Source: an uncultured Chitinophagaceae bacterium
Lineage (GTDB): Bacteria; Bacteroidota; Bacteroidia; Chitinophagales; Chitinophagaceae
NCBI GenBank assembly: GCA_937981995.1
Contig: CALJNC010000026.1
Coordinates: 1-64,000, forward strand
Length of the DNA: 64,000 nt
Direction: 5' to 3'
The notes beneath the pieces were generated by a model. It saw nothing but the letters and a program-made list of their open reading frames with translations. It was not told where the DNA came from and ran no database searches. Positions 24,868 through 28,188 of this stretch are shown one piece after another. Position 1 is the stretch's first letter. Each line of letters begins with the position of its first letter. Both the position numbers and the translations under genes were made by a program.

Positions 24868-25275
24868 CTACTTAATACTTATCTCTTTGGCTTTTGCCTT
24901 CACTGCTTTTGGTAGTGTTAGGTGCAAAATTCCATTTTCAAATGTTGCTTCAATATCTTTTTCTTTAACCTGCTCAGGCAAGTAGAATGATCTACTAAAC
25001 GTTTTTGTGGCATGTTCTTTTCGCGTATATTTTGTTTTGGCGCTGGTTGAGTCTTTAGGTTCAATTTTGGCGCTTATAGTTAGTGTATCGTTTTCGAGCT
25101 TAATTTTCAAAGCTTCTTTGTTATAGCCAGCTAAGGCAAATTCAAGCTGATATTCTTTTTCATTCTCTGATATATTTACAGCAGGAAAATGGGCATTATC
25201 TGTCAACGCATTTACGCCTAGGTCAAATAAATTTTTGAATAAAGGTTCGAAATTTGTTTTTGTTGTGTGTCTCAT
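24868..25275 (-). CDS. Small heat shock protein (Hsp20/alpha-crystallin)
   Basis: This 135-residue ATP-independent chaperone holds unfolding proteins. It has a short N-terminal arm, then the alpha-crystallin domain from about residue 28 (FPAVNISENEKEYQLEFALAGYNKEALKI) and the closing EATFENGILHLTLPK segment, with a C-terminal tail containing ISIK. It lies downstream of the anti-sigma/protease gene on the same strand but has its own upstream region with a perfect palindrome. Confidence 0.93.
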   Translation of the reverse strand: MRHTTKTNFEPLFKNLFDLGVNALTDNAHFPAVNISENEKEYQLEFALAGYNKEALKIKLENDTLTISAKIEPKDSTSAKTKYTRKEHATKTFSRSFYLPEQVKEKDIEATFENGILHLTLPKAVKAKAKEISIK

Positions 25276-26521: not shown

Positions 26522-27094
26522 TTATTTCAAAAAAATCTTTTTAAGTCGTTTCAAACATTTGTGTTTTTGTGATTTAGCATTGTCTGCATTGGTATAATTA
26601 AAAAGTGTAGCTATTTCTTTCATGCTTTTTCCATTTATATAAAAAGCTTTTATCAATCCATTACAAGGTGAGCCCAGTTCGTCCAATGCTTGGTATAATT
26701 TCTTTAGTTGTATTTCTTTTTTATTTATTTCCTTTATATCAAAAAGTTCATTAGCACGATCATGTGTATGCAATTGTGCGTAGTCAATTTCTTTTTGCTG
26801 TAATCGTTTATCGTTTTCTAGCTTTTTTAGCCACAGCTTACGCGATACGGCGACCAAGAAGGTTGAAATTTTACAAGTCAATGTAAAATTTGGTTCTTTA
26901 GCCTTTTCATACAATACGAGTAGCGCTGAATGAAAAATGTCCTCAGCCTCAAAAAGCTCCGCGGTCATGTTTTGTAAACTTCTAGTTACCACGCTAAAAC
27001 TATCTTTATATACCATTTGGAAAGCTGTTTGCTCACCAGTTGCCAAAGAACGCATCAAAATATTCTCTTCCAAAAAATCTTCTGTCTTGCTCAT
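26522..27094 (-). CDS. ECF-type RNA polymerase sigma factor
   Basis: This 190-residue sigma-70 family protein has region 2 in the N-terminal half (LQNMTAELFEAEDIFHSALLVLYEKA, STFLVAVSRKLWLKKL) and region 4 helix-turn-helix in the C-terminal half (NGLIKAFYINGKSMKEIATLFNYTNADNAKSQKHKCLKRLKKIF). A strong AGGAGGT lies just upstream of the ATG, unusual in this phylum. It forms a two-gene operon with the anti-sigma/protease gene and probably activates its own promoter (see 27198-27230). Confidence 0.88.
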   Translation of the reverse strand: MSKTEDFLEENILMRSLATGEQTAFQMVYKDSFSVVTRSLQNMTAELFEAEDIFHSALLVLYEKAKEPNFTLTCKISTFLVAVSRKLWLKKLENDKRLQQKEIDYAQLHTHDRANELFDIKEINKKEIQLKKLYQALDELGSPCNGLIKAFYINGKSMKEIATLFNYTNADNAKSQKHKCLKRLKKIFLK

Positions 27095-27197
27095 TTTACC
27101 TCCTGCGCATGTTTTTCATTACAAATTTGGCAAAATGCCGTAAAAAATACCTAATAATGATCCGTGTTAGTCATCATTATAGAGAATAGATTACACT

Positions 27198-27230
27198 ATT
27201 AATGCCCGTATAAGCCGAAAGGTAACCCCA
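27198..27230 (-). promoter_or_regulatory. Predicted ECF promoter of the sigma factor gene
   Basis: On the minus strand, TGGGGTTACC (27230-27221) is followed after exactly 17 bases by ATTAAT (27203-27198). The same arrangement occurs facing the opposite way before the lipoprotein gene at 27358. It would give a leader of about 95 bases. Confidence 0.6.
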
Positions 27231-27295
27231 CTTATTGATATTTTTTATTGATTATGTGGCTATTGTACTTCAGTTCCTTTTTTTTTATAAAAAAA

Positions 27296-27337
27296 TTGTA
27301 ATTATTGGGTTACCTTTTTTACGTTTGCGGTATTAAT
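27296..27337 (+). promoter_or_regulatory. Promoter region of the Ala/Asp-repeat lipoprotein gene
   Basis: Two promoter patterns overlap. One is the ECF-type pair TGGGTTACC (27306-27314), 17 bases, ATTAAT (27332-27337), matching that of the divergent sigma gene. The other is a housekeeping pair: TTG at 27296-27298 and TACGTTTG at 27320-27327, spaced 21 bases. Either would start transcription within about 25 bases of the ATG. Confidence 0.6.
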
Positions 27338-27357
27338 TATAATTAAACTTTATAAAA

Positions 27358-27675
27358 ATGAAAAATTTATTAAAAATTTCAATCTTCGCTTTAGCACTAG
27401 GAATGTTTGCTTCATGCGAAACTGCTACTGATGCTGCAAACGCTGCAACTGAAACTGTAGGTGATGCTGCTGATGCTGCTGGTGACGCTGCTGATGCTGC
27501 TGTAGATGCTGCTGGTGATGCTGCTGACGCTGCTGGAGACGCTGTAGATGCTGCTGCTGACGCTGCAGGAGATGCTGCTGACGCTGCTGGTGAAGCTGCT
27601 GGAGATGCTGCTGACGCAGTAACTGGTGAAGCTGAAGAAGTTGCTGAAGAAGTAGTAGAAGAAACTGTACACTAG
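27358..27675 (+). CDS. Acidic Ala/Asp-repeat lipoprotein
   Basis: This 105-residue precursor has signal MKNLLKISIFALALGMFASC, so the lipidated Cys is at residue 20. The mature 86 residues are almost only Ala, Asp, Gly, Val and Glu, built from irregular GDAADAA and VDAA-type units and ending in a Glu/Val-rich tail. It should form a long acidic Ala-rich helix. Similar composition is seen in LEA-like and alanine-zipper proteins, but I assign no family. At DNA level it is a GATGCTGCT-type repeat with nearly exclusive GCT Ala codons. It has its own terminator and probably answers to the divergent ECF sigma factor. Confidence 0.75.
   Translation: MKNLLKISIFALALGMFASCETATDAANAATETVGDAADAAGDAADAAVDAAGDAADAAGDAVDAAADAAGDAADAAGEAAGDAADAVTGEAEEVAEEVVEETVH
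27430..27620 (+). repeat. GATGCTGCT/GGTGACGCTGCT low-complexity coding repeat
   Basis: The central part of the lipoprotein gene consists of imperfect 6-, 9- and 12-base units built on GAYGCTGCT and GGTGAYGCTGCT. Such DNA is prone to in-frame length change by slippage. The open frame on the opposite strand (Ser-rich) is a by-product of this composition. Confidence 0.8.
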
Positions 27676-27699
27676 TCTTAGATTAGTAACAAGTATTAC

Positions 27700-27728
27700 A
27701 AACCACCATTTTTAATGGTGGTTTTTTT
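27700..27728 (+). terminator. Intrinsic terminator of the repeat lipoprotein gene
   Basis: Stem AAACCACCAT/ATGGTGGTTT with a short T/A loop is followed by a T run. Confidence 0.85.
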
Positions 27729-27748
27729 AGTTTTATATTAAAAACAGC

Positions 27749-27756
27749 TACATTTG
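27749..27756 (+). promoter_or_regulatory. -7 box of the rpsF-rpsR-rplI operon
   Basis: TACATTTG matches TAnnTTTG. The expected transcript start, about 27762, coincides with the first paired base of the leader structure that follows. Confidence 0.5.
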
Positions 27757-27762
27757 CGCTCC

Positions 27763-27811
27763 GCTTGGCAGCTCTTAAGCAATTAAGATCCAATTATAAT
27801 CGCTGCCGGGC
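27763..27811 (+). ncRNA. Candidate ribosomal-protein leader upstream of rpsF
   Basis: A 10-bp helix can form between GCTTGGCAGC-type bases 27763-27772 and 27802-27811 (eight Watson-Crick or strong pairs and two G-U). It encloses a second hairpin CTTAA-GCAA-TTAAG at 27774-27787 with a GNRA loop. The 3' strand contains CCG and ends 14 bases before the rpsF ATG. S6:S18 autoregulatory leaders with a conserved CCG are known in front of rpsF in many bacteria. Whether this is one is inference. Confidence 0.45.
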
Positions 27812-27825
27812 CTAAAATAAATTAT

Positions 27826-28188
27826 ATGAAAGATTACGAATTGATGGTCATCTTCACACCCGTATTGTCACAAGACGAATACAAAGCTGAAGCTAAGAAA
27901 TTAACAGCCTTCTTGGGTGAAAATGCCGGGACGGTAGTTAAGGAAAATTTCTGGGGATTGCGCCAATTAGCCTATCCTATACAAAAGAAAACAACAGCAC
28001 TTTATTATGTACTTGAGTTTCAGGCTACACCTGATACAATAAGCAAGTTATTAGTACAGTTAAATAGAACGGAAAGTGTAATGCGTCAAATGATTACATC
28101 ATTAGACAAGCATGCAGTAGCATACAATGCACGTACTAAAGGAGCTGGCAAGAAAGAAGAAACTGTAAACGAAAACGTAGAAGCATAA
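27826..28188 (+). CDS. rpsF: 30S ribosomal protein S6
   Basis: S6 binds the 16S rRNA platform as a dimer with S18. The 120-residue protein begins MKDYELMVIFTPVLS and contains FWGLRQLAYPIQKKTTALYYVLEF and LNRTESVMRQMI, the usual S6 pattern. Only 3 bases separate it from rpsR. Confidence 0.96.
   Translation: MKDYELMVIFTPVLSQDEYKAEAKKLTAFLGENAGTVVKENFWGLRQLAYPIQKKTTALYYVLEFQATPDTISKLLVQLNRTESVMRQMITSLDKHAVAYNARTKGAGKKEETVNENVEA

Follow-up and report, generated by a model that had tools for sequence, protein, structure and literature searches.

The region between a gene for an extracytoplasmic function (ECF) sigma factor and a divergent gene for an Ala/Asp-repeat lipoprotein carries two matched sites that are very probably -35/-10 promoters read by that same sigma factor (encoded at 26522-27094), which would transcribe the lipoprotein gene along with its own operon. 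The pair lies in a 64,000-nucleotide stretch of DNA (the window) of an uncultured Chitinophagaceae bacterium, on contig 26 of a genome of 2.73 Mb in 82 contigs. What the sequence itself shows is the two sites and how they are laid out, their persistence alongside the module in related genera, the pair of genes, and an intact catalytic triad in the protein encoded next to the sigma factor. An earlier interpretation made from the letters alone (the sequence-only reading) had proposed that the sigma factor drives both its own operon and the lipoprotein, and the proposal is supported at the sequence level by how often the sites recur among 102 loci, where a reversed control gave none on either side. 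Neither the gene with the fused protease beside the sigma gene nor a TACGTTTG box (27320-27327) that could serve as a second, housekeeping promoter of the lipoprotein was part of that finding.

The layout GGGTTACC-N17-ATTAAT runs from 27228 to 27198 on the minus strand, facing the sigma gene, and from 27307 to 27337 on the plus strand, facing the lipoprotein gene. The two copies are in opposite orientation and face away from each other; inspection of the sequence bears out the places and orientations first assigned to them. Likewise, the claim that the window holds no further copy stands, as a scan allowing spacers of 15-19 bases returned these two matches alone in the 64 kb, against 0 in 100 shuffles. 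The -10 element, given as ATTAAT in the sequence-only reading, is better described by the conserved form TATWAA, which begins one base upstream; the spacer is 17 at both window sites. Transcripts are predicted to start near 27192 (minus strand) for the sigma operon and near 27343 (plus strand) for the lipoprotein. Across the genome, GGGTTAC-N16-GYATWAA has two exact matches, both being the window pair, and three matches with one mismatch. Tolerating at most two mismatches yields 104 matches, fewer than the 134 of the reversed pattern, hence the weak matches are background. The shorter core TTACC-N15-19-ATTAAT was rejected as a specific signal and its counts were dropped, since 43 occurrences in the genome are barely above the 33 of the control; with this core so close to background, it is the GGG that gives the layout its specificity. 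A scan of 27050-27850 for promoters of sigma-70 type found 2 where 2.3 were expected, and Rfam at gathering score gave no match in 27050-27900.

Conservation of the sites was followed in 102 sigma loci, mostly one per genus and drawn from sigma matches with listed coordinates, which comprise the window, 29 automatic loci (L010-L038), five loci on named contigs (L039-L043) and 67 fetched loci (L106-L172); two Pontibacter loci (L044 and L045; 25% identity) were excluded. The sigma proteins of these loci are all different and their 200-base upstream ends are likewise never identical. Up to 900 bases upstream were scanned (five of the 102 loci have less). Absence of the motif pair from relatives that keep both genes had been set beforehand as the refuting outcome, and the pair is present. 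Of the 102 loci, 80 have the strict site, GGGTTAC-N16/17-TATWAA, facing the sigma gene, 69 have it facing the divergent gene and 58 have both, while the controls gave 0 and 0 when reversed, 3 in 10,200 shuffles, and 0 and 0 of 102 downstream of the sigma start. A conserved promoter-like site before the own operon, as found in the 80 loci, is a common, not universal, trait of ECF sigma factors. Allowing mismatches (10 of 13 positions) raises the counts to 101 facing the sigma gene, 98 facing the divergent gene and 98 with both, and this scoring also picks up many shuffled regions (366 of 2040) and some reversed regions (14 and 29 of 102), a background high enough that the relaxed counts are reported only beside the strict ones. 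The conserved positions are GGGTTAC with a T-rich run after it, plus G-TATWAA, at a spacing of 16 or 17 bases (68/33 and 76/22 on the sigma and lipoprotein sides, respectively), which reads as promoter geometry. The extended pattern GGGTTACCTTTTN{10,11}GTATWAA is present in 110 of 195 family genomes, in a table without reversed-control matches.

The distance between the divergent sites is itself patterned. Among the 92 loci with good sites, fewer than 60 bases separate the two GGG edges in 68, and then only at 20-23 (5 loci), 30-34 (32) and 40-45 (31) bases, so that the -35 distances in this range form groups around 23, 33 and 43 and no locus falls between the groups. A period near 10.5 beats jittered data (0/2000, by a control that ignores kinship), and the 19 loci at 60-200 bases give a weaker periodic signal in a different phase (52/2000). 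The divergent promoters may be held in helical register, which is only suggestive because the distance classes need just 5 changes on the tree.

The sigma protein matches TIGR02937 sigma70-ECF over residues 34-186 (E 1.9e-14; 53.7 bits, cut-off 42.9) and has the sigma2 and sigma4 regions over about 190 residues that mark ECF (group 4) sigma factors, whereas Pfam Sigma70_r2 alone stays below its cut-off (14.1 of 24). It is matched at E<=1e-10 in 182 of the 195 family genomes, and in 161 of the 166 with good completeness; its copy number per genome is not settled, because many genomes give several such matches. The seven named relatives of the sigma protein are three from Chitinophagaceae, one from an uncultured Bacteroidetes, one from Streptomyces and two, more distant, from Pontibacter, which points to Chitinophagaceae in the phylum Bacteroidota. 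The Streptomyces case (L041) is a contig titled as a Streptomyces griseus metagenome-assembled genome (CALPIT020000118.1), and since it bears this Bacteroidota-type module, it has probably been mislabelled. The first in-frame sigma start lies 9-16 bases from the end of the -10 element in 69 of 101 loci, which implies almost leaderless messages. In 27 loci this distance is only -1 to 5 bases, which no real start would allow, so the true starts there should lie further in. The first in-frame starts are GTG in 78, TTG in 16 and ATG in 7 loci. Short leaders are rare in Bacteroidota, at 3.7% and 5.5% (PMC7366714, PMC9723704).

Directly after the sigma gene, all 102 loci encode a protein of the same layout (352-388 residues in the 101 complete cases), whose gene starts -55 to +90 bases relative to the sigma stop, that is, overlapping or close. 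In the window this chain consists of an anti-sigma-like N-terminus (about residues 1-80), a hydrophobic membrane segment (about 86-108, judged by eye) and an HtrA-type serine protease (152-321). The protease part matches Trypsin_2 (E 5.1e-20), its best structure match is DegS without PDZ (E 4.9e-12), and the triad H174, D204 and S277, set in a trypsin fold as in HtrA and DegS, is invariant in 102 of 102. The C-terminal PDZ domain of HtrA and DegS gave no Pfam match on it at E<=0.1, and the protein is for this reason not filed as DegS; the chain ends 35 residues past the protease match. The predicted model has helices at 4-11 and 17-29 and a long helix at 31-110 that includes the hydrophobic stretch (mean predicted local distance difference test score, pLDDT, 84.2; below 50 at residues 73-79). 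The N-terminal domain modelled alone has helices at 4-11, 17-29, 31-70 and 79-109 (mean 73.9), and Foldseek returned eight weak matches to it, five to RslA/RsiW anti-sigma chains and three to EncB chains (E 4.4-8.7). The anti-sigma domain of class I (ASDI) is described as a three-helix bundle on sigma4 with a fourth helix on sigma2 (PMC7406223), and this definition together with the structure matches is suggestive of an anti-sigma-like N-terminus. An attempt to derive the topology of the fusion protein from D(S/T) glycosylation motifs after residue 120 (153 against 66.7 in shuffles) was dropped, as 75 of the 153 motifs fall in one conserved column.

The sigma factor, the fusion protein and the site tend to come and go together. 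Among the matches listed for the 131 genomes of the order that are assigned to other families (149 in all, minus the 18 of this family, the own genome included), the full-length fusion protein occurs in one only, G249, where the locus (L204) also brings the sigma factor and two sites. Eleven loci with the protease domain alone have neither sigma nor site within the examined stretch. Nine loci from other families of the order (L205-L211, L213 and L215) hold frames of 524-592 codons, part of which closely matches the protease domain (E 9e-56 to 4e-67), with no sigma factor of this kind in the examined stretch. Five good genomes of the family give no sigma match (G075, G093, G105, G133 and G168). 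Four of them, G093, G168, G075 and G105 (95-100% complete), also have no match to the fusion protein at E<=1e-40 and neither site pattern; this absence may reflect an assembly gap, and as G093 and G168 belong to one genus, it amounts to at most three independent losses. In the fifth, G133, part of the fusion protein and a site lie at the end of a contig. Among less complete genomes, G046 has a partial fusion protein with a site and G154 a partial fusion protein, which fits the broken assemblies to be expected there.

The lipoprotein foreseen in the sequence-only reading is real, with a precursor of 105 residues and Cys20 after FAS. A complete small low-complexity lipoprotein follows the opposite site in 95 of the 102 loci (precursor 52-113 residues, median 67; lipobox called by a loose pattern). 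In the other seven, a different gene (L019), a site with no frame of at least 40 residues (L020), a frame leaving the contig (L111), little upstream sequence (L021, L022 and L139) or no site (L171) is found. The tails are rich in Ala (24.5%), Thr (19.4%), Asp (10.1%) and Lys (9.1%) and almost free of aromatic residues (5, set against a count of 4847 residues). The O-glycosylation motif of Bacteroidota is D(S/T)(A/I/L/V/M/T) (PMC8550257, PMC12871550). It occurs 373 times in the tails against 70.6 (standard deviation 7.2) in shuffles, at least once in 92 of 95. No such excess is seen there for the reversed motif (62 against 69.8) or for a variant with Glu (35 against 32.8). A C-terminal Lys is found in 63 of 95 family lipoproteins against 8.8 expected; the tails share ancestry, and neither the motif nor the Lys counts are independent. 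The motif is absent from the window lipoprotein and from its same-genus counterpart (L010), and the last residue of the window copy is His rather than a Lys of the Lpp kind.

Further sites were placed in context at 75 loci (L173-L185 and L216-L277), part of all pattern matches, which yielded 68 distinct sites. Of the 35 in stretches that hold the sigma gene, 34 precede a lipoprotein and 1 nothing. The 33 in stretches without it, which does not prove the sigma gene far away, precede proteins of 130-150 residues (14), lipoproteins (6), a 96-residue family (6), other frames (4), proteins of 48-49 residues (2) or nothing (1). Two genomes (L178 and L179) have a lipoprotein gene with a site and the sigma match on another contig, and tandem lipoprotein copies each bear a site (L230 and L239-L241). 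Thirteen of the 14 proteins of 130-150 residues are alike by eye (L262 is not). A secreted-looking family of about 140 residues follows the site at L173, L175, L220, L222, L223, L247, L252, L258, L260 and L265; Pfam gave only sub-threshold matches on the single member scanned (L252). The 96-residue family (L244, L245, L255, L257, L267 and L268) shows no signal peptide by eye and is CBM48-like, just under the AMPK1_CBM cut-off and right at the CBM_48 one, which makes it an unexpected companion of envelope lipoproteins. One member of each of these two families was searched in the window genome and gave no convincing match (none at E<=0.01 in one search, best E 0.066 in the other), which shows little, the search having no positive control. 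As neither family was convincingly found there, the regulon in this genome may be as small as two promoters.

Other explanations of the matched sites have to be weighed against the one given above. It is quite improbable that the shared motif is read at both genes by another factor, either some other ECF sigma or a regulator that binds DNA. A conserved motif by itself does not name its binder, and the sigma factor is matched more than once at E<=1e-10 in many genomes of the family; however, two elements at a spacing of 16-17 bases upstream of each gene are promoter-like rather than operator-like, and motif, sigma factor and fusion protein are jointly missing in the four well-covered genomes and jointly present in G249. 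A decidedly small chance is left to the housekeeping sigma factor driving the lipoprotein through TACGTTTG (27320-27327), with GGGTTAC/TATTAA incidental or minor. The Bacteroidota housekeeping -7 box has the consensus TAnnTTTG (PMC9723704, PMC7366714), which TACGTTTG fits exactly, and the same-genus locus L010 shares the box. Yet TAnnTTTG is present in just 9 of 98 lipoprotein-side sites, 7 of them in the same position, so the box cannot account for the conservation, whereas 84 of the 98 have an exact GGGTTAC and 79 an exact TATWAA. TACGTTTG may add basal expression as part of a dual promoter for the lipoprotein. That two A/T-rich intergenic stretches resemble each other by chance is exceedingly improbable, for although the looser TTACC-ATTAAT core is common in the genome, the full layout never arose in the shuffles and is conserved in relatives.

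Several observations nevertheless weigh against the sigma factor driving both genes. The putative housekeeping box overlaps the lipoprotein promoter, the window's own sigma-side -10 element reads CATTAA, and its sigma start codon lies 104 bases from that element (27095-27198), where most loci have 9-16. G165, a genome of the window's genus (L019), retains the sigma factor and the site with no lipoprotein beside it. Among the family genomes, 85 of 195 have no exact match to the extended pattern, in part because sites differ by a base, and 5 of the 33 sites without the sigma gene nearby precede unrecognised frames (4) or no frame (1). The N-terminus of the fusion protein resembles the RslA and RsiW anti-sigma domains only weakly, both in Foldseek and in a further structure comparison, where Z scores of 5.7-6.3 are under the tool's trust level for helical folds. 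The anti-sigma profile NF052375 gives the protein 16.6 bits against a cut-off of 100, which is why it is named anti-sigma-like and not filed as ASDI.

Table 1. Features of the sigma factor-lipoprotein region of the window.
Feature	Position	Strand	Basis or remark
HSP20 small heat-shock gene, downstream, candidate operon member	24868..25275	-	HSP20 E 1.8e-22; 166-base gap to protease gene
Anti-sigma-like/HtrA-type protease protein, 356 residues	25442..26512	-	Trypsin_2, DegP/HtrA profiles, DegS/HtrA chains
ECF sigma factor gene, 190 residues	26522..27094	-	TIGR02937 sigma70-ECF
-10 element CATTAA, putative sigma operon promoter	27199..27204	-	TATWAA exact in 84/101 sigma-side sites, the window not among these
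-35 element GGGTTAC, putative sigma operon promoter	27222..27228	-	exact in 97/101 sigma-side sites
-35 element GGGTTAC, putative lipoprotein promoter	27307..27313	+	exact in 84/98 lipoprotein-side sites
TACGTTTG, possible second lipoprotein promoter	27320..27327	+	fits Bacteroidota housekeeping -7 box TAnnTTTG; putative start near 27332
-10 element TATTAA, putative lipoprotein promoter	27331..27336	+	TATWAA exact in 79/98 lipoprotein-side sites
Ala/Asp-repeat lipoprotein, precursor of 105 residues, Cys20 after FAS	27358..27675	+	open reading frame
Terminator-like hairpin with T tail, after lipoprotein gene	27700..27724	+	1 found, shuffles mean 0.6

In the circuit proposed here, the sigma factor would transcribe its own operon, first the sigma gene and then that of the membrane anti-sigma-like/HtrA-type protein, and divergently the lipoprotein gene. 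The N-terminus of the fusion protein would retain the sigma factor at the membrane, and upon an envelope signal the periplasmic protease domain could free it by cutting its own or a neighbouring chain. The lipoprotein would be the main output, possibly feeding back on the signal. A broader version of this circuit is speculative and rather unlikely to hold as a whole. In it, a single membrane protein serves across the family as sigma-sequestering factor and as its own site-1 protease, and the main output is a fast-evolving and often Lys-terminated lipoprotein, mucin-like and O-glycosylated in most relatives, that signals the state of lipoprotein export, of glycosylation or of anchoring in the outer membrane, or repairs them, with feedback through the protease domain.

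The envelope stress pathway of E. coli, RpoE-RseA-DegS, comprises an ECF sigma factor, a membrane partner encoded next to it and an HtrA-type serine protease. DegS of this pathway is treated in PMC8103513. The module described here has the same three components and the expected autoregulation, but places the anti-sigma-like domain and the protease in one chain in which no PDZ domain was found, with a predicted regulon of two to few promoters. The Dma system likewise pairs a Bacteroidota ECF sigma factor with a multi-domain partner composed of an N-terminal anti-sigma domain, a membrane helix and a long extracytoplasmic part; in Dma a disordered tether leads to a terminal beta-barrel, whereas an HtrA-type protease ends the chain here. 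The family tails are motif-dense as in general O-glycosylation of Bacteroidota, unlike those of the window lipoprotein and L010. The Braun lipoprotein Lpp is comparable as a small lipoprotein, and the C-terminal Lys is shared by most family copies (not by the window copy), but the tails differ from Lpp in being mostly Ala, Thr and Asp with nearly no aromatics. SM6 of Flavobacterium psychrophilum (PMC9723704) is a Bacteroidota ECF-type promoter that also stands before an ECF sigma/anti-sigma pair, whereas here GGGTTAC and G-TATWAA would serve a lipoprotein. In the open-access literature, searched by title and start of abstract, none of the matches listed names this sigma factor, GGGTTAC in this role, or an anti-sigma/HtrA fusion, which is not proof of their being unpublished.

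Few ECF sigma factors of Bacteroidota have a known promoter motif. EcfO of B. fragilis is one, and the excerpted text of PMC7366714 gives none for B. thetaiotaomicron at that date; class I anti-sigma domains lie beside only 6% of Bacteroidota ECFs (PMC7406223). A sigma factor matched through most of a family now comes with a sharp promoter motif and a predicted regulon of two to few genes. The module is conserved in many genera and its regulator is unusual; its predicted output is a lipoprotein that appears glycosylation-prone in most relatives. The fusion partner would unite RseA and DegS in a single chain, and the module opens the way to the signal path and to what a lipoprotein that is conserved yet changes fast is for.

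Beyond the lipoprotein gene, the hairpin of Table 1 is weakly indicated, given how close the shuffles come to the single one found. The lipoprotein gene is followed by rpsF/rpsR/rplI-like frames, named by eye from their translations.
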